From Methylobacteriaceae bacterium (GTDB lineage Bacteria > Pseudomonadota > Alphaproteobacteria > Rhizobiales > Beijerinckiaceae): a DNA stretch of 64,000 bases. Below, in pieces: positions 11,970-36,588 of this stretch. The DNA lies in NCBI GenBank assembly GCA_016793505.1, contig JAEULW010000255.1, positions 1 to 64,000 of the forward strand, read 5' to 3'. The position numbers and the translations under genes were made by a program. The first letter of the stretch is position 1. Every line of letters starts with the position of its first letter. The notes beneath the pieces were generated by a model. The model ran no database searches and had not been told where the DNA came from. It saw only the letters and a program-made list of their open reading frames with translations.

Positions 11970-11972
11970 CGA
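11959..11972. promoter_or_regulatory. TetR operator copy 2 (TCGTCA-AT-TGACGA)
   Basis: TCGTCAATTGACGA is a perfect 14-bp palindrome. It spans the TetR stop codon and contains a TTGACG -35 box (11966-11971). Confidence 0.75.
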
Positions 11973-11994
11973 TTTATGGCCGATCGTCTATGCG
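11966..11994 (+). promoter_or_regulatory. Promoter of the sugar-ABC / molybdenum hydroxylase operon
   Basis: TTGACG (11966-11971) is followed after 17 bases by TATGCG (11989-11994), a reasonable alphaproteobacterial promoter. The -35 box is half of operator copy 2, so a bound TetR would exclude RNA polymerase. The first gene starts 48 bases after the -10 box. Confidence 0.55.
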
Positions 11995-12042
11995 ATGCTA
12001 GGGAGCCGCCGCATGCGCCGGCGCAATCGGGGGAGGCATTCG

Positions 12043-13362: not shown

Positions 13363-13363
13363 G

Positions 13364-13395
13364 GACGACGCGGCCGCCGCGCGGCCGCGCACGTC
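13364..13395 (+). other. Intercistronic hairpin after the binding-protein gene
   Basis: Starting 2 bases after the stop codon, CGCGGCCGC (13369-13377) pairs with GCGGCCGCG (13381-13389) around a 3-base loop. An outer GACG/CGTC pairing (13364-13367 with 13392-13395) extends the stem across a small bulge. The position between binding-protein and permease genes matches the hairpins in the two TRAP operons. Message protection or partial termination is the likely role. Confidence 0.65.
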
Positions 13396-13426
13396 TTCCT
13401 CCGCGACGAGGCGCGACGGAGCGATC

Positions 13427-14344
13427 ATGACGCAGGCGGCCGTCCTTGCCCGCAGGCGCGAGCGCCTGCCCTTCAGCCATGACGAGCGGCGGGCTTGGCT
13501 GTTCCTCGCGCCCGTCGCGACGACGCTGCTTGTCGTCGCCGTCTTCCCGATCGTCTATTCGCTCTACATCAGCTTCTGGTCGATCAAGCTGACGCGGCCG
13601 CACCGCCAGCCCTTCGTCGGCCTCGACAACTACGCGCAGCTGCTCGCCGATCCGGAGTTTTGGCACGCGGTCGGGCGCACCACGAGTTTCACGGTCATGG
13701 CGGTGACGGCGATCTGCGTCATCGGCCTCGCCGTCGCGTTGCTGCTCAACGAGACCTTTCCGGGGCGCAAGGCGCTGCAGGCGCTGCTGCTCGTGCCCTG
13801 GGCCATTCCCTACGTCGCCAACGGCCTGATGTGGAAATGGATCTACGATTCGAGCTATGGCGCCCTGAACGGCCTGCTGTTCCAGCTCGATTTCATCGAC
13901 AAGTACATGGTCTGGCTCGGCGACGCGAACAAGACGTTGCCGCTCATCGCCAACGCCTTCGTCTGGAAGGAAGTGCCGCTCGCCGCGCTGCTGCTGCTGG
14001 TGACGCTGAAGTCGATCCCCGCCGATCTCTACGCCGCCGCGCGCGTCGACGGCGCCGGCGCGCTGCAGCGATTCCTGCACGTCACGCTGCCGGCGCTGCG
14101 GCCCGGCTTCATGCTCGTGATCATCTACGAGACGATGACGGCGATCCGGCACTTCGACCTGTTCTTCATCCTCACCGAAGGCGGGCCGGGCGACGCCAGT
14201 CACGTGTTGTCCTGGCGCATCTATGTCGAGACGTTCCGCAACCTTTCGTTCGGAACCGGCGCGGCGATGTCCTACATCCTCGCCATCGTCACCTTCGCGC
14301 TCGCCTATGGCGTCATCCGCGCGCTCGGGCGGAACGTCCGATGA
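13427..14344 (+). CDS. Sugar-type ABC transporter permease (MalF/UgpA-like)
   Basis: The 305-residue membrane protein has about six hydrophobic helices and the family's EAA loop near residues 204-228 (AARVDGAGALQRFLHVTLPALRPG), which docks on the ATPase. The first helix follows an RRAWLFLAPVATTLLVVAVFP opening typical of UgpA/MsmF proteins. A GGAG ribosome site lies before the ATG. The stop overlaps the next permease start (ATGA). It pairs with the MalG-like subunit to form the channel for the solute delivered by the 12043 binding protein. Confidence 0.92.
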   Translation: MTQAAVLARRRERLPFSHDERRAWLFLAPVATTLLVVAVFPIVYSLYISFWSIKLTRPHRQPFVGLDNYAQLLADPEFWHAVGRTTSFTVMAVTAICVIGLAVALLLNETFPGRKALQALLLVPWAIPYVANGLMWKWIYDSSYGALNGLLFQLDFIDKYMVWLGDANKTLPLIANAFVWKEVPLAALLLLVTLKSIPADLYAAARVDGAGALQRFLHVTLPALRPGFMLVIIYETMTAIRHFDLFFILTEGGPGDASHVLSWRIYVETFRNLSFGTGAAMSYILAIVTFALAYGVIRALGRNVR

Positions 14345-15291
14345 GCGCCGCTGGCCCCGCAGGCGCGACAGGCCATGTCGCGGGCGAGCGCCATCGCCGC
14401 CTGCGCATCGCCGCGTTGTGGATCGCCTCGCTGATCTTCGTCGGCTATGTCACCGCGCCGCTGGTCTGGCTCGTCTCCTCCTCCTTCCAGAGTGAACGCG
14501 AGATCACCTCGAAGCCGCCGCACTGGATCCCGCACGAACCGACCGTGCAGAATTTCGCGGCGATCTTCGCCGCGCCGAAAAAGGACGTGACCTACGAGAC
14601 GCGCCGCGCCGCCGACCCGGCGAGCGGCGGCTTCATTCCCTCGACCGCCGCCAATCTTCTGCCGGCGATGGCCAATTCGCTGATCGTGGCGATCAGCGTC
14701 GTCATTCTCAATCTGCTGGTGGCGATCCCGGCGGCCTATGCGCTGGCCAAGATCCGCTTTCGCGGCCGCGACGCCTCGATCTATGCGATCCTGACGACGC
14801 GCGTCATTCCCGACATCGCGCTGGTGGTGCCGTTCTTCCTGTTCATCCGCAATCTCGGCCTGCTCGACACGCTCGCCTCGCTGATCATCACATATCTCGC
14901 TGTCACCGTGCCCTTCTCGGTCTTCATCCTGACCAACTATTTCGAAGGGCTGCCGGACGAACTCGACAAGGCGGCGCGGGTCGACGGCTGCTCGCGGCTG
15001 CAGACGCTGCTGCACGTCTATGTGCCGCTGTCGCTGCCCGCCATCGTCGCGGTGATCCTGTTCGCCTTCCTGGCGAGCTGGAACGAGTTCCTGCTGGCGC
15101 TGATGTTCACGCAGACGCCGAATTCGCAGACGCTGCCGATCATCGTCGCCTCGTTCACGTCCGACTTCACGATCAGCTTCTCCTTCATCAACGCCGCCGG
15201 CGTTCTGGCGATCATTCCGCCCGTGCTGATCGCCCTCCTCTTCGAGCGCTATCTCGTCTCCGGCCTCACCGCCGGCGCGGTGAAAGGCTGA
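14341..15291 (+). CDS. Sugar-type ABC transporter permease (MalG/UgpE-like)
   Basis: The 316-residue membrane protein shows the MalG pattern: an N-terminal helix, the SSFQSEREITSKPPHWIP segment and the EAA loop AARVDGCSRLQTLLHVYVPLS at about residues 212-232. The ATG at 14341 overlaps the upstream stop (ATGA). A longer in-frame reading upstream is only the shadow of the first permease. There is a modest insertion of charged residues between helix one and two (KKDVTYETRRAADPASGGF), slightly longer than usual in the family. It forms the second half of the transport channel. Confidence 0.92.
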   Translation: MSAAGPAGATGHVAGERHRRLRIAALWIASLIFVGYVTAPLVWLVSSSFQSEREITSKPPHWIPHEPTVQNFAAIFAAPKKDVTYETRRAADPASGGFIPSTAANLLPAMANSLIVAISVVILNLLVAIPAAYALAKIRFRGRDASIYAILTTRVIPDIALVVPFFLFIRNLGLLDTLASLIITYLAVTVPFSVFILTNYFEGLPDELDKAARVDGCSRLQTLLHVYVPLSLPAIVAVILFAFLASWNEFLLALMFTQTPNSQTLPIIVASFTSDFTISFSFINAAGVLAIIPPVLIALLFERYLVSGLTAGAVKG

Positions 15292-15293
15292 CC

Positions 15294-16382
15294 ATGGCGT
15301 CCATCCGTTTCGACAAGGTCGGCAAGCGCTACGCCAACGGCTTCGTGGCGATCGAGAACCTCGATCTCGAGATCCGCGACCGCGAGTTTCTCGTGCTGCT
15401 CGGCCCCTCGGGCTGCGGCAAGTCGACGACGCTGAACATGATCGCCGGCCTCGAAGAGGTCACCTCCGGCAAGCTCTGCTTCGGCGACCAGCTCGTCAAC
15501 GACATCCCGCCGGACCGGCGCGACGTCGCGATGGTGTTCCAGAGCTATGCGCTTTATCCCCACAAGACCGTCTACGAGAACATCGCCTTCGGTCTGCGCA
15601 TGCGCCGCACGCCGCAGGCCGAGGTCGATGCGCGCGTTCGCTCGGCGGCGCAGAAGCTGGCGATCACCCATCTGCTCGACCGGCGCCCGAGCCAGCTCTC
15701 CGGCGGGCAGAGGCAGCGCGTGGCGCTCGGCCGCGCCATGGTGCGCCGACCCGCGGTCTTCCTGATGGACGAGCCGCTGTCCAATCTCGACGCCGCATTG
15801 CGCATCTCGATGCGCGCCGAAATCAAGCAACTGCACGAGGAGATGCAGACGACCTTCGTCTACGTGACGCATGACCAGGCCGAGGCGCTGACGCTCGCCG
15901 ACAGGATCGTCGTGATGAACGACGGCGCCATCGAGCAGATCGGCACGCCGCACGACATCTACGAGAAACCGGCGACGATCTTCGTCGCCTCTTTTCTCGG
16001 CGCGCCGCCGATCAACACGCTGGACGGCGAGATCGGCGGCGCCTCGGGGCGACCGGTGTTTCGCTGCGGCGACGTCGCGCTCGCGCTGCCGCCCGCTATC
16101 GCCGCGCCGACCGGATCGAAGGCGACGCTCGGTCTGCGCGCCGAGGACGTGACGCTCGATCCCAAAGCGCAGGACGACGTCGCGATCGACGGCGTCGTCA
16201 ATTCGATCCTGCCGATCGGATCGGACCAGTTCATCGGCATGAAGGTCGCCGGGCGCGAATTCTTTTTCCGTCTCGCGAAGGATCAGGCCTGCGCCATCGG
16301 CGATCGCGTGCGCCTCGCCGCGCTGACCAACCGCTTGCATGTGTTCGATGCGGCGAGCGGACGCTCGCTGGCGGGCGGTTGA
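15294..16382 (+). CDS. Sugar-type ABC transporter ATPase (UgpC/MsmK-like)
   Basis: The 362-residue protein has Walker [10 protein letters not shown], the signature [19 protein letters not shown], Walker [14 protein letters not shown] and the switch histidine in YVTHDQAEA. The C-terminal part (about 240-360) is a TOBE/OB regulatory domain as in MalK and UgpC, with the usual [10 protein letters not shown] stretch. It begins 2 bases after the second permease stop. It energises the importer encoded immediately upstream. Ordinary in length and sequence for the family. Confidence 0.94.
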
Positions 16383-16385
16383 ACC

Positions 16386-17252
16386 ATGAAGCCGGCGCCC
16401 TTCGCCTATCATCGCGCCGCCGACGCGACCGACGCGCTCGCCGTGATGGCCGGCGCGTCCGACGCCGCCTTCCTCTCCGGCGGCCAGAGCCTGGCGCCGA
16501 TGCTCAATCTGCGCATGGCGCGCCCGGCGCTGCTCATCGACCTGAACGATTGCGCCGAGCTCAGCGGCGTAACCCTTGGCGACGGCGGCCTGCGCATCGG
16601 CGCACTGACCCGTCACCACCATCTGGCGACTGACGCGACCGTGCGCAGCCGTCATCCGCTGCTGGCCGAGGCGGCCGCGACGATCGGCAGCGATGCGATC
16701 CGCCGCCGCGGCACGCTCGGCGGCTCGCTGGCGCATGCTGATCCGGCCGCGCAACTGCCGCTGATCGCCACGCTGTGCGGCGCCGTCATCGCGCTGCAGA
16801 GCGCGCGGGGCGCGCGCATGATCGAGGCGGACGACTTCTTCGTCTCCGCGCTCGAGACGGCGCGCGAGCCGAACGAACTGGTCGTCGCCGCGACCTTCCC
16901 GGACCTTGCCCCGGCGACCGGCTGGGGCCTCGCGCAGCTCTGCAAGGTGGCGGGCGACTTCGCCGTCGCCTCGGCGGCCGCGACGCTGGCGCTGGACGGC
17001 GCCGGCGCGATCGTCGACGCGCGCCTCGCCGTCGGCGCGGTCTGCGACAGGCCGATGGCGCTGGACGCCGCCGGTCTGCGCGGCGCGCGGCCGGGGCCTG
17101 ACGTTTTCGAGGATTTCGCCATGGCCGCCGTCGGCGCGCTGGACATCGCCGATGCGCCCGGGATCGACGCCGACGACCGGCGCGACCTCGCCGCGGCGAT
17201 GATCGTCGAGGCGATGACGCGCGCTGCGGCGCGAGCGGGGAGGGCGGCGTGA
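16386..17252 (+). CDS. Molybdenum hydroxylase FAD subunit (CoxM-like), set 1
   Basis: The 288-residue protein is the FAD-binding medium subunit of a xanthine-oxidase-family enzyme. It shows the two FAD motifs AFLSGGQSLAPMLNLRMARP (about 28-47) and TIGSDAIRRRGTLGGSLAHADPAA near residues 99-120, the latter holding the family TLGGSxxHADPAAQ string. It passes electrons from the 2Fe-2S subunit to the final acceptor. The start lies 3 bases after the ABC ATPase stop, so uptake and oxidation are in one operon. It pairs with the CoxS- and CoxL-like genes that follow with overlaps. Confidence 0.9.
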   Translation: MKPAPFAYHRAADATDALAVMAGASDAAFLSGGQSLAPMLNLRMARPALLIDLNDCAELSGVTLGDGGLRIGALTRHHHLATDATVRSRHPLLAEAAATIGSDAIRRRGTLGGSLAHADPAAQLPLIATLCGAVIALQSARGARMIEADDFFVSALETAREPNELVVAATFPDLAPATGWGLAQLCKVAGDFAVASAAATLALDGAGAIVDARLAVGAVCDRPMALDAAGLRGARPGPDVFEDFAMAAVGALDIADAPGIDADDRRDLAAAMIVEAMTRAAARAGRAA

Positions 17253-17728
17253 AACGGGTTCCGGTGACGCTCGACGTCAATGGCGAGAGCCACGCGCTGT
17301 CGCTCGAGCCGCGCCGCCTGCTGTCCGACGCGCTGCGCGAGGAGTGCGGGTTGACCGGCGTGCATGTCGGCTGTGAGAACGGCGTCTGCGGCGCCTGCAC
17401 GGTGCTGATCGACGGCGCGCCGGCGCGCGCCTGCCTGATCTTCGCCGTGCAGATGCAGGGCCACGCCATCGCCACGATCGAGAGCGTGGCGCGGGGCGGC
17501 GCGCTGTCGCCGTTACAGCAGGCGCTGCACGAGGAGCACGGGCTTCAGTGCGGCTTCTGCACGCCCGGTCTGGTCATGACCATGGAGGCTTGGCTGAAGG
17601 ACAATCCCGATCCGGACGAGACGGCGATCCGCGCGGCGCTTTCCGGACATCTGTGCCGCTGCACCGGCTATCAGTCGATCGTCGCGGCGGTCAAACGTGC
17701 GGCGCGCATCGCGCGGGAGCGGGCATGA
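17249..17728 (+). CDS. Molybdenum hydroxylase 2Fe-2S subunit (CoxS-like), set 1
   Basis: The 159-residue protein has an N-terminal plant-type ferredoxin domain with C42, C47, C50 and C62 (CENGVCGAC then C), and a C-terminal four-helix domain with C101, C104, C136 and C138 (CGFCTPG, CRCTGY). All eight ligands of the two clusters are present. It starts with GTG and overlaps the FAD-subunit stop (GTGA). It links the molybdenum centre to FAD. Length is normal for the family. Confidence 0.95.
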
Positions 17729-20088
17729 GCGGGTTTTCGAGCATCGGCAAGCGGCTGCTCCGCTTCGAAGACCGCCGCTTCCTGACAGGGCAGGGCGCCT
17801 ATCTCGACGATATCGTTGCGCCGCGCTGTCTTCATGCGCACTTCCTGCGTTCGCCGCATGCGCATGCCCGCATCCGTGCGATCGACGCGCGGGAGGCGGC
17901 GTGGCTGCCCGGCGTGCGCGGCGTCTATCGCGGCGCCGATCTGGCGGCGATGGCCAAGCCCCTGCGCATGGCGCCGCCGATCGAGGGATTGAAGCCGACC
18001 GAGATCGCGCCGCTGCCGGTCGACAAGGTCCGCTTTCAGGGCGATCCCGTCGCCGTCATCCTGGCCGACGATCGTTACATCGCGGAAGACGCCGCCGAGC
18101 TGATCGCCGTCGATTACGAGCCGCTGCCGGCGGTGACGAGCTTTGCCGAGGCGCTGTCGCCCAGCGCGCCGAAGGTGGACGAGACGCTCGACGACAATCT
18201 TGTCGCGCATCAGAGTTTCGCGACGCCGGGCTGCGCCCGCGTCTTCGCCGAGGCGAGGCGCATCGTGACGCGCCGCTTCGTGCAGAACCGCGTCACGCAT
18301 GCGCCCATCGAGACGCGCGGCTGCCTGGCGATCTGGGACGAGGGCCGCCAGCATCTGACTTTCCATGTCGGCAATCAGGCGCCGCATCCCTATCGCACGC
18401 AGCTGGCGGCGCGGCTCGGGCTGAGCGAGTCGCAGGTGACGGTGATCGCGCCGGACATCGGCGGCGCCTTCGGCCAGAAGATCGCGCTGTATCGCGAGGA
18501 GCTGGCCTGCGCAGCGCTGGCGCGGGCGACGCGTCGCCCGGTGCGCTGGCGCGAGGACAGGATGGAGAACCTCGCCGCGGCGAGCCATGCGCGCGAGGAC
18601 GCCTGCGTCACCCGCGCGGCGATCGACGCGCAGGGCCGCATCCTGGCGCTCGACGTCGCCATCGAGGAGGATTTCGGCGCCTATTGCTTCTTCCCCGGCA
18701 ACTATCTGGCGCGCGTCGTCGCGCTGATGACGCCGGGGCCCTATCGCATTCGGGACTACGCCTACGACGTGCGCGTCGCGCTCACCAACAAATGCGGCGC
18801 CGGGCCGATGCGCGCGCCGATGTCGATGACGAGCTGGATCATGGAAGGCACGCTGGACGCGATCGCTGCCGAGCTCGACGCGGATCCTGCCGATATCCGC
18901 CGCCTGAACATGATCGAGGCGCGCGAATTGCCGTACGTCACCGTGACCGACCAGCGGCTCGAGGACATCACGCCGCGCGAGACGCTCGAAGGCGCGCTGG
19001 CGCATCTCGATTATGCCGCGGCGCGGGCACGCCAGCGCGCCGATCGCGCGCGGGGGATCCTGCGTGGGCTCGGCATCTGCGTTGTCGTCGAATCGACCAC
19101 CTATGGCTCGGCCTTCTACAAGTCGGCCGGCATCCCCGGCTCCGGTCACGAGACGGCGGTGGTGAAGGTCGAGCCGTCGGGCGCGGTCAACGCCGCCGTC
19201 GGCTTGATGGCGTCGGGTCAGGGCTATGAAACGGCGCTTGCCCAGGCCGTCGCCGAAGGGCTCGGCGTCGATCCGGCCACGGTGCGCCTGCAGATCGGCA
19301 ATACCGACGTCGCCCCTTACGGCATGGGCAGCCGCGGCGCGCGCGGCGCCACCGCCGGCGGCGGCGTTCTTTATCTCGCGTCGCAGGCGCTGGGCGAAAA
19401 GATCAGGACCATCGCCGCGCGCGAGCTGGGGCTGAACGACATCGGCGAGCTGCGCCTCGCCGCGGGCCGCATCGAGCGGCGCCTCGCCGGCGCGTGGGAA
19501 GCGACGCGCCTGTCGCTGACCGATGTGGCGCGCATCGCCTATCTCGACCCGCTGCGCCTGCCGCCCGGTCTCGAGCCCGGCCTCGAGGTCCACAAGGCCT
19601 ACGAGCCGCCGGCGATGACCTTCTCCAATGCGACGCATGTCTGCGAGGTCGTCGTCGACGCGCGCAGCGGACGCATCGCGATCGAGCGCTACATCGTCGC
19701 CGAGGATTGCGGCACGCCGCTCAATCCGATGCTGGTCGAAGGCCAGCAGATCGGCGCCGTGGCGATGGGTCTGTCAGGCTGCCTTTCCGAGCATGTCGTC
19801 TATGATCGCGACGGGCAGAACCTGTCCACCACCTTCGCGGACTATCATCTGGCCACCGCCGTCGAGATTCCGCATATCGAGATCGTGCCGATGCACACGC
19901 CGAACCGCTCGACGCCGGCCGGCGTCAAGGGCATGTCGGAAGGCGGCGTGATGGGCGCGATCGGCGCCCTCGCCAACGCCGTCGACGACGCCCTGCGCCC
20001 GCTCGGGATCAGGGCCGAGGCGCTGCCGCTGACGCCGATCGCCCTGCGCCGGTTGATCCGCACCGCGACACGAAGGAGCGCGCCATGA
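17725..20088 (+). CDS. Molybdenum hydroxylase large subunit (CoxL-like), set 1
   Basis: The 787-residue subunit binds the molybdopterin cofactor. Visible family motifs are DIGGAFGQK, the cofactor loop GMGSRGARGATAGGG and the C-terminal GVKGMSEGGVMGAIGALANAV, in which the Glu after GMS is the conserved catalytic base. The active-site loop reads GPMRAPMSM (Arg at about 363) where carbon monoxide dehydrogenase has AYXCSFR and related enzymes AYRGAGR, so this is not a form I CO dehydrogenase. The enzyme probably hydroxylates an aldehyde, heterocycle or similar carbonyl. ATG at 17725 overlaps the CoxS stop. The sugar-type transporter upstream may bring in the substrate. No Mo-cofactor genes are in the window. 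Confidence 0.9.
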   Translation: MSGFSSIGKRLLRFEDRRFLTGQGAYLDDIVAPRCLHAHFLRSPHAHARIRAIDAREAAWLPGVRGVYRGADLAAMAKPLRMAPPIEGLKPTEIAPLPVDKVRFQGDPVAVILADDRYIAEDAAELIAVDYEPLPAVTSFAEALSPSAPKVDETLDDNLVAHQSFATPGCARVFAEARRIVTRRFVQNRVTHAPIETRGCLAIWDEGRQHLTFHVGNQAPHPYRTQLAARLGLSESQVTVIAPDIGGAFGQKIALYREELACAALARATRRPVRWREDRMENLAAASHAREDACVTRAAIDAQGRILALDVAIEEDFGAYCFFPGNYLARVVALMTPGPYRIRDYAYDVRVALTNKCGAGPMRAPMSMTSWIMEGTLDAIAAELDADPADIRRLNMIEARELPYVTVTDQRLEDITPRETLEGALAHLDYAAARARQRADRARGILRGLGICVVVESTTYGSAFYKSAGIPGSGHETAVVKVEPSGAVNAAVGLMASGQGYETALAQAVAEGLGVDPATVRLQIGNTDVAPYGMGSRGARGATAGGGVLYLASQALGEKIRTIAARELGLNDIGELRLAAGRIERRLAGAWEATRLSLTDVARIAYLDPLRLPPGLEPGLEVHKAYEPPAMTFSNATHVCEVVVDARSGRIAIERYIVAEDCGTPLNPMLVEGQQIGAVAMGLSGCLSEHVVYDRDGQNLSTTFADYHLATAVEIPHIEIVPMHTPNRSTPAGVKGMSEGGVMGAIGALANAVDDALRPLGIRAEALPLTPIALRRLIRTATRRSAP

Positions 20089-21115: not shown

Positions 21116-22801
21116 ATGCCTCGACACGCCTCGCGTCGCGCCATTCTCGGCGGCGCCTTGACCGTCTCCATTGCGGCCGCGCTCGCCGGCTCGGCCCTTG
21201 CGCAAGGCGCCGGCGATCCGATCCGCAAGATCGTCATCATCACCGACACCCAGGGCGCCATGCCTCAGGCCTATCAGGCCGGCCAGCTGATCGCGCAGGA
21301 ATGGCGCAAGCTCGGCCTCGACGTCGAAGCCCGGCCGATGGCGCGCCAGGCGCAGACCGATCTCGTCTGGTTCAACCGCGACAAATGGGACACGACGATG
21401 TGGCGCATGGTCGGGCGCCCCGAGCGCAGCGACCCCGACGAGATGACCTTCAACCTGTTCCACTCCTCGACCGCGCCGCGCGGCTTCAATTTCGTCGGCT
21501 ACAACAGCCCGGACTATGACAAGGTCGCCGAACAGCAGCGCCAGACGCTCGACCCCACGGCAAGGCAGGCGCTGATCAAACAGGCGCAGGAAATCGTCAA
21601 TCGCGACGCGCCCTATGCGTTCCTGCTGCATCCCAACACGTTGCAGGCCTTCAACCAGAACGTCTTCGATCCGGCCTCCATCGTCGTGCAGAAGGGCGTC
21701 GGCATCCGCAATTTCTGGACCTTCATCGGCGCCGCGCCGAAAGGCGCCCAGAAGGCGATGATCATCAATTCGGGCACGGCCTTGCAGGCGATCCATCCGC
21801 TCTACATCGCCGGCGCGCCGGACAGCTGGATGAACGAACTGATCTGGGACCGGCTGGTCCGCATCGGCCCCGACGGCCTGCCGCGGCCATGGGCGGCCGA
21901 GAGCTTCAAATTCGTCGACGACAAGACGGTGGACATCGTCATCCGCGGCGACATGAAGTTCCACGACGGCAAGCCGGTGACGATCGACGACGTCATCTTC
22001 TCCTACGAGGCGCCGCTGAAAACCGACAAGTCGCCGATGTTCAAGCCTTTCGTCACGGACATCGATCGCATCGAGAAGACCGGCGACCGTTCGCTGCGCA
22101 TGCATCTCAAGCGCGCCAACGCCGCCTTTGCGACGACGGCCCTCGGTCGCGTCTTCATCGTGCCCAGGCATGTCTGGGAGCCGCATCTCAAGAGCCTCGA
22201 AGGCAAGCCCGACACGCTGGAGGCGATCCGCGATCCGGCCAATGTCGGCTCCGGGCCGTTCAAGCAGGTGCGCGCGCGACTCAACGAGGAGATCGTCATC
22301 GAGCGTCACGCCGAGCACTGGGCGGCGCCGAAGGTCGATCGCGTCGTGCTCCGCGTCATCCCGAACGCCGAGGCGGTGGTCGGCATGTTGCGTTCGGGCG
22401 AGATCAATCTCCTGTCCGAATATGGCGGCGATCCCGACGTGCTCGACAAGCTCGCCAAGGACAACGCGGCGATCAAGCTGACGCAGGTCACCGATGTCGG
22501 CATCGAGTTCCTCGCCTTCAACAACCGCCGTCCGCCGTTCGACGACGTTGCGTTCCGCAACGCGCTGTCTGCGGCGATCGATCGCAACGTGATCGTCCAG
22601 GCGGCGTGGAACGGCTATGCCGTGCGCTCGGTCAGCCATGTCTCGCCGGCGATCGAATTCTGGCACGCCAGGGACGTGAAGGCGCCGCCGACCGGACTCG
22701 ACGTCGCCAAGTCGATCCTCGACAAGGCGGGCTACAAGGTCGAGGGCGGCAAGCTGCGCTATCCCGCCGGCAAGAAGGAGGCGTTGCAGCCGCCGGGCTG
22801 A
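21116..22801 (+). CDS. Oligopeptide-type ABC substrate-binding protein with swapped lobe order
   Basis: The 561-residue protein has a twin-arginine-like leader (ASRRAILGG, cleavage near ALAQG, 30-31). Residues about 35-205 look like the part that normally ends family 5 proteins: QLIAQEWRKLGLDVEARPM, NFVGYNSPDYDKV, LDPTARQALIKQAQEIVNRD and APYAFLLHP. Residues about 212-545 then give the part that normally comes first: IWDRLVRIGPDGLPRPWAAES, GDMKFHDGKPVTIDDVIFSYE, GSGPFK, PPFDDVAFRNALSAAIDR and finally DVAKSILDKAGYKVEGGKLRY. A usual protein runs from that last segment into the first block, so the order is circularly permuted. The canonical order is seen at 45036-46550. Length is normal and nothing is lost, so it is probably functional. 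The permease and ATPase genes follow directly. Confidence 0.85.
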   Translation: MPRHASRRAILGGALTVSIAAALAGSALAQGAGDPIRKIVIITDTQGAMPQAYQAGQLIAQEWRKLGLDVEARPMARQAQTDLVWFNRDKWDTTMWRMVGRPERSDPDEMTFNLFHSSTAPRGFNFVGYNSPDYDKVAEQQRQTLDPTARQALIKQAQEIVNRDAPYAFLLHPNTLQAFNQNVFDPASIVVQKGVGIRNFWTFIGAAPKGAQKAMIINSGTALQAIHPLYIAGAPDSWMNELIWDRLVRIGPDGLPRPWAAESFKFVDDKTVDIVIRGDMKFHDGKPVTIDDVIFSYEAPLKTDKSPMFKPFVTDIDRIEKTGDRSLRMHLKRANAAFATTALGRVFIVPRHVWEPHLKSLEGKPDTLEAIRDPANVGSGPFKQVRARLNEEIVIERHAEHWAAPKVDRVVLRVIPNAEAVVGMLRSGEINLLSEYGGDPDVLDKLAKDNAAIKLTQVTDVGIEFLAFNNRRPPFDDVAFRNALSAAIDRNVIVQAAWNGYAVRSVSHVSPAIEFWHARDVKAPPTGLDVAKSILDKAGYKVEGGKLRYPAGKKEALQPPG

Positions 22802-22845: not shown

Positions 22846-23814
22846 ATGAGCTATGTGCTGCGTCGGCTGGCCCACAGCCTCTTCGTGCTGTGGGCCGTCG
22901 TCACCATTCTCTTCCTGATGTTCCGGCTGATGCCGGGCAATCCGCTCGCCGCCTACATCAACGAGCAGCTCAACGAGGAGGATCAGCGCCAGATCATGGC
23001 GCAGTTCGGCCTCGACCGGCCGCTGTACCAGCAATACGCGATCTATCTGTGGAACCTGCTGCAGGGCAATCTCGGCATGTCCTTCTTCCGGCGCGAGCCG
23101 GTCTGGGACGTGATCGTCTCGGCGCTGCCGAACACGCTGATCCTGACCACGACAGGGCTGCTCGTCGCCTATCTATTCGGCGTGCTCGCCGGCGCCTGGC
23201 TGGCGACGAAGCGCGGCACGCTGGCCGAAGGCGTCATTGTGCCAGCTGCGCTGGCGACGCGCGCGGCGCCGGAGTTCTGGATCGGCATGATTCTGCTGAC
23301 GCTGTTCGCTTTCACCCTCGGCTGGTTTCCCTCGGGCGGCGCCAACAGCGCCGGCGCAGCCTACGCCAGCGAATGGGATCGCATCTTCTCGATCGATTTC
23401 GCCCGGCATCTGTTCCTGCCGGCGCTGACGCTGGCGCTCTATCTGCAGGGCCTGCCGCTCCTGCTGATGCGCTCGACGATGCTCGAAATCCTGCATGACG
23501 AGTTCATCACCATGGCGCGGATCAAGGGCCTGTCGCCCTGGCGGATCACCTTGCGACATGCGGCGCGCAACGCCCTGCTGCCGGTGGTGACCGCCTTTGC
23601 GCTCGGTCTCGGCGCGACGCTCGGCGGCAATGTCGTGGTCGAGACCGTCTTCTCCTGGCCCGGACTCGGCCGGCTGCTCGTCGGCGCGGTGGCGCAGAGC
23701 GACTACCCGCTGGCGCAGGGCGCGTTTTTCCTGATCAGTCTGGTGCTGATCAGTCTCAATCTGCTCGTCGACCTCATCTATGGCTGGCTCGATCCGCGAG
23801 TGTCGCATGACTGA
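22846..23814 (+). CDS. Oligopeptide ABC transporter permease (DppB/OppB type)
   Basis: The 322-residue membrane protein begins with YVLRRLAHSLFVLWAVVTILF, the DppB opening, followed by the FRLMPGNPL stretch. The EAA loop is at about 216-235 (TMARIKGLSPWRITLRHAAR) and the C-terminus has the ETVFSWPGLGRLLVGAV motif. About six helices are visible. An AAGGGGGG ribosome site lies upstream of the ATG. The end overlaps the next permease by 8 bases. It forms the channel with the DppC-like subunit. Confidence 0.93.
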   Translation: MSYVLRRLAHSLFVLWAVVTILFLMFRLMPGNPLAAYINEQLNEEDQRQIMAQFGLDRPLYQQYAIYLWNLLQGNLGMSFFRREPVWDVIVSALPNTLILTTTGLLVAYLFGVLAGAWLATKRGTLAEGVIVPAALATRAAPEFWIGMILLTLFAFTLGWFPSGGANSAGAAYASEWDRIFSIDFARHLFLPALTLALYLQGLPLLLMRSTMLEILHDEFITMARIKGLSPWRITLRHAARNALLPVVTAFALGLGATLGGNVVVETVFSWPGLGRLLVGAVAQSDYPLAQGAFFLISLVLISLNLLVDLIYGWLDPRVSHD

Positions 23815-24706
23815 CGCGAGCCAGACCCGCCTCGCCCGGCCGGGCGCGAGCCGACTCTGGTCGGCGGCGCGGAGCATCCTGCGCGATCCTTTCGCCGTCG
23901 CCGCATTGGCGATCTATCTGGCGCTGACGCTGATGGCGATCTTCGCCGACGAATTGCGCACGCATGATCCGACGCAGATCCTGTTCCGCGCCAATGGCCG
24001 CGTCGCCGCCAATCAGCCGCCAGGCGAGGCGTTCCTGCTCGGCACCACCAATCTCGGGCGCGACATCTATTCGCAATTGATCGCCGGTTCGCGCAACGCG
24101 CTGATGGTCGGCGTCACGGCGGCGATCTCGGTCGCCGCGATCGGCACGCTGGTCGGTCTGCTCGCCGGCTATTTCGGCGGCCGCGTCGACGCTTTTCTGA
24201 TGCGGCTCGCCGATGTCGCGCTCGCTATCCCGTTCCTGCCCTTCGTCATCGTCCTGTCGGGCTTCCTGCGCGCCAACACCTGGAATGTCGTGATCGCAGT
24301 GGCGCTGCTGCTCTGGCCGAACACGGCGCGCGTCATCCGCGCCCAGGTGCTGACGCTGAAGGGCCGCGCCTATGTCGAGGCGGCGCGCGTCACCGGCGCG
24401 TCCGACATGCGCATCCTCTTCGTGCATGTCGCGCCGAACATTCTGCCGCTCACCTTTCTCTACGGTTCGGTGGCGATCGGCTGGGCGATCCTGACCGAAG
24501 CGGCGGTGAGCTTCGTCGGGTTCGGCGATCCCTCGCGCATCTCCTGGGGCTTCATGCTGCAGGACGCCTTCGTCTCGCAGGCGCTCTCGCGCGGCAGCTG
24601 GAACTGGTTCCTGCCGCCGGGCCTTGCGATCATCGCGGTGGTGATCGCCGGCTTCCTGCTGGCGCGCGGCGCCGAGGAAGTCCTGTTCCCGAAGTTGAGG
24701 AGCTGA
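23807..24706 (+). CDS. Oligopeptide ABC transporter permease (DppC/OppC type)
   Basis: The 299-residue membrane protein has the OppC plan: an N-terminal helix after [18 protein letters not shown], then [20 protein letters not shown], the motif that follows the periplasmic loop in this family, and the EAA loop at about 195-214 ([20 protein letters not shown]). It ends with a helix and a short charged tail. The ATG at 23807 overlaps the DppB stop by 8 bases. It completes the membrane channel for the permuted binding protein. Confidence 0.92.
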
Positions 24707-24708
24707 GC

Positions 24709-25719
24709 TTGGACGCGGCGCTGCGGATCGAGAACCTGTCGATCGAGTACCGCACTGCGCGCGGCCTCGTGCGGGCCGTCGACGGCGTCAGCTTCGTCGT
24801 GCCGCAGGGCGCGATCGTCGGCCTCGTCGGCGAGTCCGGCTGCGGCAAGACGACGGTGGCGCGCGCCATCACCGGCGTCATGCATCAGAACGCGCGCTTT
24901 GCCGGCGGCCGCATCGTTTTCAAGGGCGAGGATCTGATCGCCGGCCCGCCCGGCCGATGGCTCGAGCGGCGCTGGCGCGACATTTCCTTCATTCCGCAAA
25001 GCGCCATGAACTCGCTCGATCCGGTCTATCGGATCGGCGCGCAGATTGCCGAAGTGCTGATCCACCGCGGCGACCGCAGCCGCGCCGCCGCGCAGACGCG
25101 GGCGCGCGAGTTGTTCGACATGGTCGGGCTCAACCCTGCGCGGCTCGACGACTATCCGCACCAGTTTTCCGGCGGCATGCGCCAGCGCGTGGCGATCGCG
25201 CTCGCCCTCGCTCTGGAGCCCTCGCTCGTCATCGCGGATGAACCGGTGACCGCGCTCGACGTCATCGTCCAGCGCCAGATTCTCGATGTCATTCGCGAGC
25301 TGCAACGCAAGCTCGCTTTGTCGATGATCCTCGTCACGCACGACATCAGCGTCGTCGCCTATCTCGCCGACAGCATTGTCGCGATGTATGCCGGCCGCGT
25401 CGTCGAGACCGGCGCGACCGCCGATCTGCTGGAGCGCCCGCGCCATCCCTACATGATGGGGCTGACCAACGCTTTTCCCGATCTCGACGCCGCGGCGCGC
25501 GAGCTGGTTCCCATCGACGGCAGCCCGCCGGACCTTCTGGATCCGCCGCCCGGCTGCCGCTTCGCGCCGCGCTGCCCCTTCGCCCTGCCGCGCTGCGCTG
25601 AAGAGGCGCCGCACGCCGACCACCTGTCGCCGGATACGAGCGTCGCCTGCCACCGCGCCGGCGAGGCCGCCGCCCTTCGCGCGCTGGCGCAGGCGCCCGC
25701 CACATGGGCGCGGGCATGA
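24709..25719 (+). CDS. Oligopeptide ABC transporter ATPase (DppD/OppD type)
   Basis: The 336-residue protein carries Walker [10 protein letters not shown], signature [19 protein letters not shown], Walker [13 protein letters not shown] and the switch His in LVTHDISVV. The C-terminal cysteine cluster [17 protein letters not shown] (about 285-301) is the iron-sulfur motif of the oligopeptide/dipeptide ATPases. It starts with TTG at 24709 after a GAGGAG site, 2 bases beyond the DppC stop. It drives transport together with the next gene. Confidence 0.92.
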
Positions 25720-26699
25720 CGGCGCCGACGCCGCTGATCGAGGCGCGCGGCCTCGTCAAGCGCTTCGCGCCGCCGGCGCGGCTGGCGCAGTTCTTCGGCA
25801 AGGCGCGCGCGCCCACACACGCTGTCGATGGCGTCGATCTTTCCATCAGCCGCGGCGAGAGCGTCGGGCTGCTCGGCGAGTCGGGCTGCGGCAAGACGAC
25901 GACCGGCCGCCTGTTGCTGAAGCTCATCGAGCCGAGCGAGGGCGACATCAGCTTCGACGGCGCGCCGCTGGCGAGGCTCGCCGGCCCTTCGCTGATCGCC
26001 TTCCGCAAGCGCGCGCAGCTCGTCTTCCAGAATCCGTTCGACGCGCTCAATCCACGCTTCACCATCGAGCGCGCCCTCGCCGAGCCGCTGGTCAATACCG
26101 GCGTCGAGAGCGCCGCGCATCGCGCCCGGATCGAGAAGGCGCTGACGCAGGTCCGCCTGCCGCCGCTCGCCCGCTTCGAGGGCCTGTATCCGCATCAGCT
26201 CAGCGGCGGACAGTTGCAGCGGATCGTGCTCGCCCGCGCGCTGGTGCTCGAGCCCGCGTTCATCGTCGCCGACGAACCGGTGTCGATGCTCGATGTTTCG
26301 GTGCGCGCCGGCGTGCTCAACGTCATGCGCGAGGTGCGCTCGAAGCTGGGTCTGGCCGCGCTCTACATCTCGCACGATCTGGCGCTCGTCCGCTATGTCT
26401 GCTCGCGCACGCTGGTGATGTATCTCGGCCGCATTGTCGAGGAGGGCGACACGGTCGACCTCCTGAAGTCCCCGCAGCATCCCTATACGCGCGCGCTGAT
26501 GGCGGCGGTGCCGACGCCGCGCGTCGACCAGTCGCGCGCGCCGCTGCCGATCATCGGCAACGTGTCCGACGCAGGCGGCCGGCCGAAGGGCTGCGCCTTC
26601 CGCGATCGATGCCCGCTCGCCGTCCAGCGTTGCGCGGAGGAACAGCCTGTCTTGCGCGCAGTCGCCCCTGGCCGACGCGTCGCCTGCCATCTGGTTTGA
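25716..26699 (+). CDS. Oligopeptide ABC transporter ATPase (DppF/OppF type)
   Basis: The 327-residue protein has Walker [10 protein letters not shown], the OppF Q-loop LVFQNPFDALNPRFTIERAL, signature LSGGQLQRIVLARALVLEP, Walker B FIVADEPVSMLD and the C-terminal cysteines GCAFRDRCPLAVQRCAEEQP. The ATG at 25716 overlaps the upstream stop as ATGA; an ATG 12 bases earlier is possible. It is the second nucleotide-binding subunit of the importer. The M28-like genes follow 22 bases downstream on the same strand. Confidence 0.92.
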   Translation: MTAPTPLIEARGLVKRFAPPARLAQFFGKARAPTHAVDGVDLSISRGESVGLLGESGCGKTTTGRLLLKLIEPSEGDISFDGAPLARLAGPSLIAFRKRAQLVFQNPFDALNPRFTIERALAEPLVNTGVESAAHRARIEKALTQVRLPPLARFEGLYPHQLSGGQLQRIVLARALVLEPAFIVADEPVSMLDVSVRAGVLNVMREVRSKLGLAALYISHDLALVRYVCSRTLVMYLGRIVEEGDTVDLLKSPQHPYTRALMAAVPTPRVDQSRAPLPIIGNVSDAGGRPKGCAFRDRCPLAVQRCAEEQPVLRAVAPGRRVACHLV

Positions 26700-26721: not shown

Positions 26722-28440
26722 ATGAAGACGCACAAGGCGCTGCTGAACGACATCAGTCTCGACGCGCCATGGGAACTGGTCGAAACCTTCGCCAGGACGC
26801 CGCGCTGGAAGCCCGCCGACGTCAACAAGGGCGCCGACATGATCGTGCGCCGGCTGAGGAAGCTCGGCGCGCCCGTGACGGTGCACGAGCCCGAGATTTA
26901 TCTGTCGATCCCCTATGACGCTTCGGTGACGGCGTGCGGCCGCGTGATGCGCGCCAAGCCGCCGGCCTATTGCGTGCCGACCAGCGGAACGACGGCGGAA
27001 GTCGCCTATGTGCCGGCCGCCTATTCGAAGTCGATCGGCAAACTGTTCCACCGCAACCAGACCGTCACCGACATGTCGCGGCTCAGAGGCCGCATCGCCG
27101 TGTCGGAAGGTTTTGCCTTTCCGCAGAAGATTCGCGAATTCGAACTCGCCGGCGCCGTGGGCGTCATCGCGGTCAATCCCGGCGTCGATGTGCATTGGGG
27201 CATCTGCACCTCCATCTGGGGCACGCCCGATCTCGACGATCTGCCGCGCAAGCCCGGCATTCCGGTCGTCGCCGTCAACAATCCAGATGGAAGGGACATC
27301 ATCAAACTTGCCGGCACAGCCGAGACGGTGACGATCGCCGCCCATCTCGAGGAGGGCTGGTACAGGCAGAAGGTTCCTGTCGTCGAAATCCGCGGCGCGG
27401 TCGAACCGGAGAAGTTCGTTCTGCTGCACGGACACTACGATTCCTGGGATGTCGGCGTCGGCGACAACGCGACCGGCGATGCGACCATGCTCGAGATCGC
27501 GCGCGTGCTCGCCGCCCATGCAGGCAGGCTCAGACGTTCGGTGCGGATCGCCTGGTGGCCGGGCCATTCCACCGGGCGCTATGCCGGCTCGACCTGGTTC
27601 GCCGATCACTTCGCGCTCGATCTCGACGCCAATTGCGTCGCGCAGATCAATTGCGACAGTCCTGGCTGCCGCTGGGCGACCGAGTTCAAGGATGTCTCCT
27701 GGATGAAGGAGACGGAAGCCTACGCCAGGGCGGTGATCAAGGCCGTCTGTGGGCTCGACGGCCATGGCGAGCGGCCGCATCGGGCGGGCGACTACTCGTT
27801 CAACAATATCGGCCTGTCGAGCCTTCTGATGCTGTCCTCGACGATGCCCGACGCGTTGCGCGCCAAGAAGGGCTACTACACGGTCGGCGGCTGCGGCGGC
27901 AACATCGCCTGGCACACCGAGAACGACACGCTGGAGATCGCCGATCGCGACATTCTCCTGCGCGACATCAAGGTCTATTGCGAGATGGTCGCCGGCATCG
28001 CCGACGCCGAGATCCTGCCGTTCGACTGGCGCGCCCAGATCGCCGAATTCGGCGACACGATCGCCGCCTATCAGAAGGCGGCGGGCAAGGCGTTCGACCT
28101 GACGCCCGCGGCCGAAGCGACCGCGGCGCTCGGCGAGCGGCTCGAGACCTTCTACAAGGCGACGCAGCGCGGCAAGGTGAAACCCGCCGCCGCCAACGCC
28201 GTGATCCAGCGCCTCGCGCGCATTCTCGTGCCGATCAACTACACGACGACGCCGCGATTCCGCCATGATCCGGCGACGCCGGTGCCGGCGCTGCCGACGC
28301 TCGCGCCGGCGACGCAGCTCAAGGGGCTCGACAAGACGCGCCTCGGCTTCGCCCGCACCCAGCTTGTGCGTGGACAAAATCGCTATATCGCGGCCTTGCG
28401 CGACGCGGAGACGATCGTCGCCGCCGCGCTCGCCGGCTGA
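26722..28440 (+). CDS. M28-like metallohydrolase, copy 1
   Basis: The 572-residue cytoplasmic protein (no signal peptide) has an M28 core with an inserted PA-like domain (about 80-215; GAVGVIAVNPGVDVHWG). Metal-ligand positions are visible: H238 and D240 (HGHYDSW), D248 (VGDNATGDA), D312 (INCDSPGC) and H398 (AWHTENDTLE). Where M28 peptidases have the Glu-Glu pair (general base plus metal ligand) this protein reads WWPGHSTGRYAGSTWF (278-293), with G281-H282. The catalytic base therefore seems absent, so the activity may not be ordinary aminopeptidase. About 150 C-terminal residues follow the core. It lies after the peptide-type transporter and before a paralog, so it probably acts on the imported compound. 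Confidence 0.8.
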   Translation: MKTHKALLNDISLDAPWELVETFARTPRWKPADVNKGADMIVRRLRKLGAPVTVHEPEIYLSIPYDASVTACGRVMRAKPPAYCVPTSGTTAEVAYVPAAYSKSIGKLFHRNQTVTDMSRLRGRIAVSEGFAFPQKIREFELAGAVGVIAVNPGVDVHWGICTSIWGTPDLDDLPRKPGIPVVAVNNPDGRDIIKLAGTAETVTIAAHLEEGWYRQKVPVVEIRGAVEPEKFVLLHGHYDSWDVGVGDNATGDATMLEIARVLAAHAGRLRRSVRIAWWPGHSTGRYAGSTWFADHFALDLDANCVAQINCDSPGCRWATEFKDVSWMKETEAYARAVIKAVCGLDGHGERPHRAGDYSFNNIGLSSLLMLSSTMPDALRAKKGYYTVGGCGGNIAWHTENDTLEIADRDILLRDIKVYCEMVAGIADAEILPFDWRAQIAEFGDTIAAYQKAAGKAFDLTPAAEATAALGERLETFYKATQRGKVKPAAANAVIQRLARILVPINYTTTPRFRHDPATPVPALPTLAPATQLKGLDKTRLGFARTQLVRGQNRYIAALRDAETIVAAALAG

Positions 28441-28452
28441 CGGAGAACGATC

Positions 28453-30195
28453 ATGGCCCTGACAGAGAACGAACGCGCGGTTCTTTCCGACATCTCGCTC
28501 GATGCGCCGTGGGATCTCGTCGTGACCTACGCGAAGATGCATCGCTGGCGGCCCGAGGACGTCAACAAGGGCGCCGATGCGCTCGGCCGACGGTTGAAGA
28601 AACTCGGCGTGCCGTTCGAGATGCACAAGCCGACGATCTATCTGTCGATCCCGCTCGACGCATCGGTGAAGCTCGGCCGCAAGACGTTCCGCGCCAAGCC
28701 GCCGTCGATGTCGCTGTCGGCGCCCGGCGGCGTCTCCGGCCCGCTCGTCTATCTCGACGCGGACGAAGAGAAGTTCCGCTCCTACACGCGCGATCCGAAG
28801 GAAATCTTCAAGGACGGCGGCGCCGACGGGCCGAGTCGTGTCGGCGGGAAGATCGCGGTGCTGAACGGATTCGCCAATCCCGGCACATGTTCGCTGCTGG
28901 AGGAGTGGGGCGCGCGGGCCGTCATCGCCGTCAATCCCGGCGTCGACATTCACTGGGGCACCTGCACGACGATCTGGGGCTCGCCCGATCTCGACGATCT
29001 GCCGCGCAAGCCGAAGATTCCCGTCGTGGCCGTCTCCAATCCCGATGGCCAGCATCTCATCGCTGCGGCGAAGACCGGGCAGACGGCGAAAGTCGCCGCC
29101 GAGATGCTCGAGGGCTGGTTCATGCAGAAAGTGCCGGTGGTCACGATCCCCGGCGCCGTCGAGCCGGAGCGTTTCGTGCTCGTGCATGGCCACTACGACT
29201 CATGGGAAGTCGGCGTCGGCGACAACGCCACCGGAGATGCGACTCTGCTCGAGCTTGCGCGCGTGCTGCACAAGAATCGCAGCAAGCTGCGGCGCTCGGT
29301 GCGCATCGCCTGGTGGCCGGGACATTCCACCGGCCGTTATGCCGGGTCGACCTGGTTCGCGGATCATTTCGCCGAGGATCTCGACGAAGCCTGCGTCGCG
29401 CAGATCAATTGCGATTCGCCCGGCTGCCGCTGGGCGACGAGCTATCATCAGACGACCTGCATGCCCGAGGCGCGCGACCATGTCGCCGACATCATCACGG
29501 AAATCGCCGGTCTGCCGCCGAAATTCAAGCGGCCGAACCAGGCCGGCGACTACTCCTTCAACAATATCGGCATCTCGAGCTACTACATGCTGTCCTCGAC
29601 AATGCCGGACGATCTCCGGGCGCAGAAGAACTATTATGCAGTGTCGGGCTGCGGCGGCAACATCGCCTGGCACACAGAAAACGACACGCTGGAGATCGCC
29701 GACAAGAACGTGCTGATGACAGACATGCGCATCTATCTCCTGTCGGTGCTGCGCCACGCCAACGCCAGCTATCTGCCGGTCGACTGGCGCGCCGCGATCG
29801 CCGAATTTCTGGCGACGATCGGCGCCTACCAGAAGGCGGCGGGCAAGAACTTCGATCTGTCGCCGGCGCGGCAGGCGACGGAGCGCCTCGGCGCGCGGCT
29901 CGACGCGCTCTATGCGCGCATCGCCAGGAAGACGATCGACGAGGCGCGCGCCAACGAGGCGCTGATGCGGCTGGCGCGCGTGCTGGTGCCGATCAACTTC
30001 ACCCAGCAGCCGCGCTTCCGGCATGATCCCGCCTATGCCTGTCCGCCGCTGCCGACGCTTGCGTCTGTGCGCGATATCGCCAGCGCAGGGCCCGAGCGAA
30101 CCGGATTCGTGAAGACGCAAGCCATGCGCGGCCAGAACCGCTATCTCGGCGCGCTGCGCGAGGCGACGCGCCTCGTCGACGCCGCGCTGGCGTGA
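28453..30195 (+). CDS. M28-like metallohydrolase, copy 2 (tandem paralog)
   Basis: The 580-residue protein is colinear with the upstream gene throughout and shares long identical stretches such as RSVRIAWWPGHSTGRYAGST, with many substitutions elsewhere, so the duplication is old. The same changed site is present: WWPGHSTGRYAGSTWF instead of a Glu-Glu motif. HGHYDSWEVGVGDNATGDA, NCDSPGCRW and AWHTENDTLEIAD supply the metal ligands. GGAGAA precedes the ATG, 12 bases after copy 1. Conservation of the variant site in both copies suggests that it is functional. The two may form a heterodimer or have split specificity. Confidence 0.8.
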   Translation: MALTENERAVLSDISLDAPWDLVVTYAKMHRWRPEDVNKGADALGRRLKKLGVPFEMHKPTIYLSIPLDASVKLGRKTFRAKPPSMSLSAPGGVSGPLVYLDADEEKFRSYTRDPKEIFKDGGADGPSRVGGKIAVLNGFANPGTCSLLEEWGARAVIAVNPGVDIHWGTCTTIWGSPDLDDLPRKPKIPVVAVSNPDGQHLIAAAKTGQTAKVAAEMLEGWFMQKVPVVTIPGAVEPERFVLVHGHYDSWEVGVGDNATGDATLLELARVLHKNRSKLRRSVRIAWWPGHSTGRYAGSTWFADHFAEDLDEACVAQINCDSPGCRWATSYHQTTCMPEARDHVADIITEIAGLPPKFKRPNQAGDYSFNNIGISSYYMLSSTMPDDLRAQKNYYAVSGCGGNIAWHTENDTLEIADKNVLMTDMRIYLLSVLRHANASYLPVDWRAAIAEFLATIGAYQKAAGKNFDLSPARQATERLGARLDALYARIARKTIDEARANEALMRLARVLVPINFTQQPRFRHDPAYACPPLPTLASVRDIASAGPERTGFVKTQAMRGQNRYLGALREATRLVDAALA

Positions 30196-30202
30196 AACGA
30201 AG

Positions 30203-31204
30203 ATGCAGGACATGCGCGCGGTCTTCTACGAGCGCTGCGGCCCGGCCGCTGAGGTCTTGCGTCTCGGTGCGACGCCGAGCCCGGCCCCGGGGCCGAATGA
30301 GGCGCTCGTGCGCGTGCATGTCTCGGGCGTCAATCCGCATGACGTCAAGAAGCGGGCGGGCTGGCTGACGCAGGAGTTGCCGGCGCCGCGCGTCATTCCG
30401 CATTCGGACGGCGCCGGCGTCATCGTCGAGGCCGGGCCCGGCGTCGCGCGCGAGCGCATCGGCGAGCGCGTGTGGATCATGCATGCCTCGGATCAACGCC
30501 CCGGCGCCGGCGCGGCGGCCGATCTCGTCGTCGTGCATTGCGATCACGCGGTGCGCCTGCCCGAGGGCGTCGGCTTCGATGTCGGCGCCTGTCTCGGCGT
30601 GCCGTTCCTGACGGCGCATGACGCCGTGCTGCGCGACGGGCCGGTGACCGGACAGACGGTGCTGGTGCAGGGCGGCGCCGGCGCTGTCGCGGGCTACGCG
30701 ATCCAGCTCTGCGTCTGGAATGGCGCGCGCGTCATCGCCACCGTGAGTTCGCCGCAGAAAGCCGCGCACGCCCGCGCGCTCGGCGCCGACATGACGATCG
30801 ACTATACGCGCGAAGATGTCGTCGCAGCGGTTATGGAGCAGACACGCGGGCGCGGCGTCGATCGCATCGTCGAGGTCGATTTCGGCGCAAATCTCGTCGC
30901 CGATCATGCCGTCATTCGGCCCTGCGGCGTCGTCGCCAGCTATTCCTCGAGCCGCGTGCGCGAGCCGACGCTTCCCTACTACGCTTTCGCGCGCAAGGGC
31001 GTCACGCTGCATTTCGTGCAGGGCATGCTCCTGACGCATGAGCGCGCCGGGGCCGGGATTCGCGACGCGACCGCGCTGCTCGAGCGCGGCCGCCTCGTTC
31101 ATCCGATAGCGCGGACGTTTCCGCTGGCCGAGACCGCGGCGGCGCATGAGCTGCAGGAAGGCGGCGTCGCGATCGGCAAGATTCTCGTCGCCAACGATCT
31201 CTGA
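30203..31204 (+). CDS. Quinone-oxidoreductase-like medium-chain dehydrogenase
   Basis: The 333-residue protein belongs to the MDR superfamily, zinc-free NADPH:quinone reductase branch. It shows the early VSGVNPHDVKKRAGW (the PxDxxxR region), the Rossmann motif VLVQGGAGAVAGYAIQLC, ALGADMTIDYTREDV and HELQEGGVAIGKILV at the end. The structural-zinc cysteines of alcohol dehydrogenases are absent. The start may be the ATG at 30203 or the ATG at 30212 (MRAVFYERCG), which fits family openings better; neither has a strong ribosome site. It lies 7 bases after the M28 pair and is the probable last gene of the operon from 21116. The natural substrate is unknown. Confidence 0.87.
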   Translation: MQDMRAVFYERCGPAAEVLRLGATPSPAPGPNEALVRVHVSGVNPHDVKKRAGWLTQELPAPRVIPHSDGAGVIVEAGPGVARERIGERVWIMHASDQRPGAGAAADLVVVHCDHAVRLPEGVGFDVGACLGVPFLTAHDAVLRDGPVTGQTVLVQGGAGAVAGYAIQLCVWNGARVIATVSSPQKAAHARALGADMTIDYTREDVVAAVMEQTRGRGVDRIVEVDFGANLVADHAVIRPCGVVASYSSSRVREPTLPYYAFARKGVTLHFVQGMLLTHERAGAGIRDATALLERGRLVHPIARTFPLAETAAAHELQEGGVAIGKILVANDL

Positions 31205-36467: not shown

Positions 36468-36588
36468 TGAGAACCCCTCGTCGGCGCGAGGATGGCCTGC
36501 GGCGGGGCGGCTGTCGAGTGGCCCGGATTGCGCCGGACGAGGCGCAGGCATGCGCCCGGCGCGAGCGCTCCGCCCGGTCAGCGGCGCA

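Follow-up and report, generated by a model that had tools for sequence, protein, structure and literature searches.

A family 5 receptor with its two blocks in reversed order

Few groups of ABC receptors are as numerous or as thoroughly studied as family 5, and the gene at positions 21116–22801 of the window (the whole 64,000-nucleotide stretch of DNA analysed here) raises the question of whether such a receptor can exist in nature with its chain circularly permuted, as a first-pass annotation had proposed, and, if so, whether the new order is inherited or an error. The reading frame, on the plus strand, runs from an ATG at 21116 to a TGA stop at 22799–22801, is open throughout and encodes 561 residues. 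Evaluating this protein against Pfam, we found SBP_bac_5 to be the sole confident family (209 bits against a curated cut-off of 32.4), matching as two stretches, and a six-frame search of the assembly placed these in the same frame with the back part first (profile positions 287–365 at 21224–21472, then 2–287 at 21881–22762). Two matches in reversed order are what the first-pass annotation had predicted for a permuted chain.

A canonical profile of 510 positions, trained on 20 family 5 receptors of ordinary order from this genome, gave the same picture, with profile positions 361–489 matching residues 48–183 (71 bits) and positions 24–351 matching residues 205–544 (220 bits), such that the block order and coordinates claimed at first pass were borne out. 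The profile gap between the two pieces is only about 10 positions (351–361), and therefore essentially no residues were lost at the cut. Rotating the protein in silico at residue 210 converted the two matches into a single colinear match (profile 6–489 of 510, 303.5 bits) that covers all fold segments of both lobes, while rotations elsewhere left the match split or lowered its score. Because only rotations near the true junction yield one colinear match, chance and badly placed profile boundaries were ruled out. Profile-profile alignment against L007, a receptor of this genome with ordinary order, likewise assigned block 1 to positions 347–488 (E 2e-22) and block 2 to positions 34–362 (E 1e-66).

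Across the 27 SBP_bac_5 matches in the assembly, three of which (L024–L026) span only part of the profile, the match was split and reversed only at 21116–22801. The other family 5 receptor in the window (45036–46550, minus strand) gave one colinear match (profile 2–364), in agreement with the usual order ascribed to it earlier. The 561-residue protein thus lacks the ordinary linear segment order, and we filed it as a permuted branch of family 5; it is a family 5 (SBP_bac_5, cluster C) receptor whose two blocks stand in reversed order. The earlier remark that this is not a habit of the genome holds for the assembly, but the gene is no lone oddity, as it belongs to a rare and widespread subfamily (see below).

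The cut lies in a predicted domain III hairpin

The protein opens with a predicted signal peptide (residues 1–30, 21116–21205, MPRHASRRAILGGALTVSIAAALAGSALAQ) that carries a twin-arginine-like SRRAIL motif and lies outside the receptor blocks. Block 1 (residues 36–205, 21221–21730) corresponds by profile and profile-profile alignment to the C-terminal portion of family 5 receptors with the usual order, and block 2 (residues 212–556, 21749–22783) corresponds by profiles and by model alignment to AppA to their N-terminal part. Between them, sequence, profiles and model place a junction (residues 205–212, 21728–21751) that joins the old C-terminus to the old N-terminus, with no inserted domain and no remnant signal peptide visible and with a model pLDDT of about 89–94.

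The permuted protein ends ...AGYKVEGGKLRYPAGKKEALQPPG and starts, after its leader, with GAGDPIRKIVIITDTQG..., two segments that together read like the hairpin after the AGY helix of ordinary receptors. We predict the cut to be a hairpin turn that connects the stretch following the helix AKSILDKAGY to the beta strand that comes next; when mapped on AppA, the match breaks off at 347 and resumes at 364. Domain III of OppA spans about 271–486, and by these limits the cut is placed inside domain III. With the former ends of the chain, which both sit in domain I, now fused, lobe I (domains I and II) forms an unbroken run and domain III is the one cut in two. From this mapping, the chain should still cross between the lobes twice. 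The first-pass suggestion that the new order could alter hinge behaviour or ligand access is accordingly not supported, because the break falls in a domain III loop and it is within domain I that the former termini meet. The main physical change would instead be that the N-terminal signal or lipid anchor exits domain III rather than domain I.

An AlphaFold2 model of the 561-residue protein, built from an input alignment of 14 permuted sequences, was confident (pLDDT 88.4, pTM 0.86), with block 1 at about 82–97. The best solved relative was AppA (1xoc), for which VIA-align matched model residues 178–526 to AppA 17–361 (Z 24.3 over 334 residues, within block 2), while the best Foldseek TM against solved structures was 0.54 on the query. 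Both aligners keep chain order, and a partial match limited to the block 2 portion is what permutation predicts from them; both left block 1 and the last ~140 AppA residues unmatched, and in sequence block 1 matches AppA 379–499. Among the best 60 of 108 matches, no solved chain was colinear with the permuted profile. Folded alone, block 1 gave a poor model (pLDDT 66.7) with weak matches (Z ≤7.7), which fell on the expected C-terminal parts (e.g., 5u4o 356–483, 1dpp 337–470). The pTM, pLDDT and sequence together suggest that block 1 is spatially equivalent to the ordinary C-terminal part.

Permuted relatives are rare but widespread, and the order is inherited

A homologue scan over one genome per species recovered full-length colinear relatives at 82–87% identity in independent genomes of other Hyphomicrobiales, and more distant ones (28–34% identity) in records titled Bacillus, Desulfobacterales, Deltaproteobacteria, Gammaproteobacteria, Tissierellia, Alphaproteobacteria and Candidatus Bathyarchaeota. 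Among plasmid records, those of Neorhizobium, Roseomonas, Nitratireductor, Microvirga and Ketogulonicigenium, isolate megaplasmids among them, carried relatives at 50–53% identity, and haloarchaeal plasmids did so at about 23–30% identity, with block order checked in three. Named isolates are represented by, among others, Neorhizobium, Roseomonas, Nitratireductor, Ketogulonicigenium and Halalkalicoccus. Classifying sequences by the order of their profile matches, we counted 50 permuted ones (49 after one duplicate was set aside), and all permuted loci with both ends present share a breakpoint at profile positions of about 344–378. Homologues starting with the same block, which the first-pass annotation had proposed to look for, thus number about 49 distinct loci, drawn from multiple phyla of bacteria, one Bathyarchaeota bin and plasmids of haloarchaea. 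Three further sequences that surfaced as relatives (L059, L060, L082) have the ordinary order and were excluded from the permuted set.

Genome counts from these scans are lower bounds because scoring was limited to the few best candidates of each genome: 15 of 385 sampled genomes matched in the class (one of these with an ordinary receptor and one with a contig-end fragment), as did 6 of 199 in the phylum of the Bacillus locus, 5 of 198 in that of the deltaproteobacterial locus and 1 of 151 in that of the Bathyarchaeota locus, the last three with the centre included. At E 1e-60, the window's own genome was the sole match among 398 of its phylum. Five of the permuted receptors come from a single deltaproteobacterial bin, the match being incomplete for two. 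To summarize, the gene at 21116–22801 belongs to a rare but widespread permuted subfamily of cluster C receptors.

These relatives bear directly on whether the order could be spurious. The assembly is a draft of 352 contigs with many family 5 receptors, and one might imagine that pieces of two adjacent receptor genes were joined in the wrong order by assembly or recombination; this account is refuted by the homologues in independent genomes and plasmid records, by a breakpoint shared by about 49 loci and by purifying selection on both blocks (dN/dS 0.03–0.18 between close relatives where computable), and we give it practically no credence. The same order across bacterial and archaeal relatives instead indicates a real inherited rearrangement. 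The circular permutation read at first pass is well supported: the order of the profile matches, the rotation test and the profile-profile alignment agree with a confident model and with a breakpoint common to about 49 loci. The dN/dS values, together with conserved length, also rule out a pseudogene. A degenerate receptor, or one without a role in transport such as a sensor or inactive paralogue, is highly improbable: the five permuted paralogues of one genome could include specialised copies, but dN/dS is low, permease and ATPase genes follow the receptor immediately in alphaproteobacteria and haloarchaea, and similar-looking reading frames are present at the Bacillus and Tissierellia loci.

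The permuted receptors form one branch

Placing all sequences in the ordinary register, we obtained a tree in which one branch (support 100/99) splits 45 permuted from 36 ordinary rows, most of the ordinary receptors belonging to the same taxonomic order as the window. Block 2 by itself, for which no rotation is required, returned a permuted clade in IQ-TREE (99/89), and a quick FastTree run on this block failed to group the permuted sequences into a single clade. Five residues (R104, W259, H352, W354 and S379) are near-invariant in permuted rows and uncommon in ordinary ones. Escherichia coli DppA, whose order is ordinary, has R383 and D436 as ligand residues (PMC12136057), and the permuted receptors have the near-invariant Arg104, which ordinary ones seldom carry.

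A competing account holds that the reversed order arose several times at a cut site that is a hot spot, such that the permuted receptors are not one family. A hairpin turn could tolerate breaks, and the narrow sampling of ordinary receptors also leaves some room for this account, but the position of all 45 permuted rows on one side of a single branch, the block 2 clade and the five shared residues make it very unlikely. A single permutation in the subfamily's ancestor, followed by vertical and horizontal spread, is most likely. The probable route is a tandem duplication whose copies fused and then lost their outer parts; among the loci recovered here, there was no fused tandem receptor of the kind expected as a duplication intermediate.

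An importer operon with peptidase neighbours

Directly downstream of the receptor, on the same strand, lie genes for a DppB-type permease (22846–23814; PF00528, PF19300), a DppC-type permease (23780–24706; PF00528), and DppD-type (24709–25719) and DppF-type (25704–26699) ATPases, both with PF00005 and oligo_HPY (PF08352). With two permeases and two oligo_HPY ATPases beside the receptor, and with relatives annotated likewise, the locus encodes a Dpp/Opp-type importer, and its gene set (receptor, two permeases, two ATPases) is identical to that of E. coli DppABCDF. Compared with DppA, OppA, NikA and AppA, the window protein is homologous over essentially its whole length and sits in an operon that likewise has two permeases and two oligo_HPY ATPases, and it differs in having its blocks reversed, its termini in domain III and the old termini joined. 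Altogether, we are highly confident that this gene, placed in an importer operon, specifies a working and exported cluster C receptor that represents a natural circular permutation of the DppA/OppA/NikA fold.

Immediately after the importer genes, two M28 family peptidase genes stand in tandem (26722–30195), encoding proteins of 572 residues (26722–28440, PF04389) and 580 residues (28453–30195, PF04389), followed on the plus strand by a zinc-binding dehydrogenase of quinone reductase type (30203–31204; PF13602, PF00107, PF08240). On the minus strand come an M20 family peptidase/amidohydrolase (31215–32597; PF01546, PF07687) and hydantoinase/oxoprolinase subunits A (32594–34876; PF01968, PF05378) and B (34632–36551; PF02538). 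Upstream, 11863–20088 holds genes for a putative ABC importer of sugar type, comprising a receptor, two permeases and an ATPase, and behind them apparent genes for subunits of molybdenum hydroxylase type.

Similar neighbours recur among the relatives. An M28 gene lies near the permuted receptor in four further loci (L061, L062, L063 and L067), one of which (L062) also has a quinone reductase gene downstream, and the Nitratireductor, Ketogulonicigenium and Roseomonas plasmids have the order receptor-permease-permease-ATPase-ATPase with M28, M20 and hydantoinase A/B genes close by. Haloarchaeal neighbours include M28 in Haloprofundus, creatininase-family and M20 genes in Halalkalicoccus and D-aminoacylases in Haladaptatus, while in Maritalea the order differs, with an ATPase preceding the permeases and a gamma-glutamylcyclotransferase-like gene downstream. 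Ordinary family 5 receptors can have similar gene neighbours. From these neighbours, the ligand is likely a peptide-like or an N-blocked or cyclic amino-acid compound. By analogy with DppA, the receptor would close on this ligand in the cleft between its lobes and hand it to the adjacently encoded permeases, with the two ATPases powering import, after which the M28 and M20 peptidases and the hydantoinase/oxoprolinase may process the imported compound.

Precedents, tethering and export

The nearest precedent is a permuted cluster B receptor, MglB-2 of Treponema pallidum (TpMglB-2, Tp0684), which with its homologues makes up the 'cluster Bc / type Ic' permuted sugar receptors. In that protein, the permutation shifts N-lobe strands to the C-terminus and adds a fourth inter-lobe crossing, and ligand binding and ligand-induced movement are described as retained (PMC4990184). 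Both cases are natural circular permutations of an ABC receptor common to a set of homologues, but TpMglB-2 belongs to cluster B and has the fourth crossing, whereas the window receptor belongs to cluster C and should keep two. No cluster B (sugar receptor) family matched the window protein in Pfam at E up to 1. The first-pass annotation had left open whether the order had been described before; in the open-licence literature, we found no earlier description of a family 5 permutant, and such receptors are absent from the main text of the CIRPIN preprint on circular permutations. The branch is annotated merely as 'ABC transporter substrate-binding protein', and standard profiles match only pieces of it, a warning that sequence and structure searches that keep chain order show permuted proteins as partial matches.

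Could the new order be adaptive? With the N-terminus now on domain III, and the signal or lipid anchor with it, tethering, permease docking or the export route might be altered, the last through Tat, with folding before export. Twin-arginine-like motifs occur in 16 of the 26 permuted receptors from alphaproteobacteria, compared with 7 of 33 ordinary ones (p 0.003, a crude count over rows that are not independent), and the MglB-2 authors raise tethering for their own permuted receptor (PMC4990184). Against this, the motif count is affected by shared ancestry and the motif is absent from 10 of the 26, and we regard adaptation of this kind as conceivable and rather doubtful. We hold with equal reserve the fuller scenario in which one ancient permutation founded a separate cluster C branch that spread through bacteria and archaea and was kept since its anchored N-terminus had moved to the other lobe; if true, the moved N-terminus changes the receptor's export, its tethering or its docking on the transporter. 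With about 30% identity across phyla, the permuted branch represents a ready-made experiment on chain order, termini placement and anchoring in a Venus-flytrap receptor, and it offers natural permutation sites for the construction of peptide biosensors.

Variation ahead of block 1

In a deltaproteobacterial bin (L056, 5527–7572), the frame of a permuted receptor is open upstream into the apparent C-terminal end of a TRAP DctM permease; the join could be a bin error, or the last DctM membrane helix could act as the receptor's signal. One permuted subgroup (L058, L081 and L083) has an extra ~30–50 residues ahead of block 1, which in L058 include KYRRFYDGVSGYYMKDPGWVAETTARLTWPKAGE.
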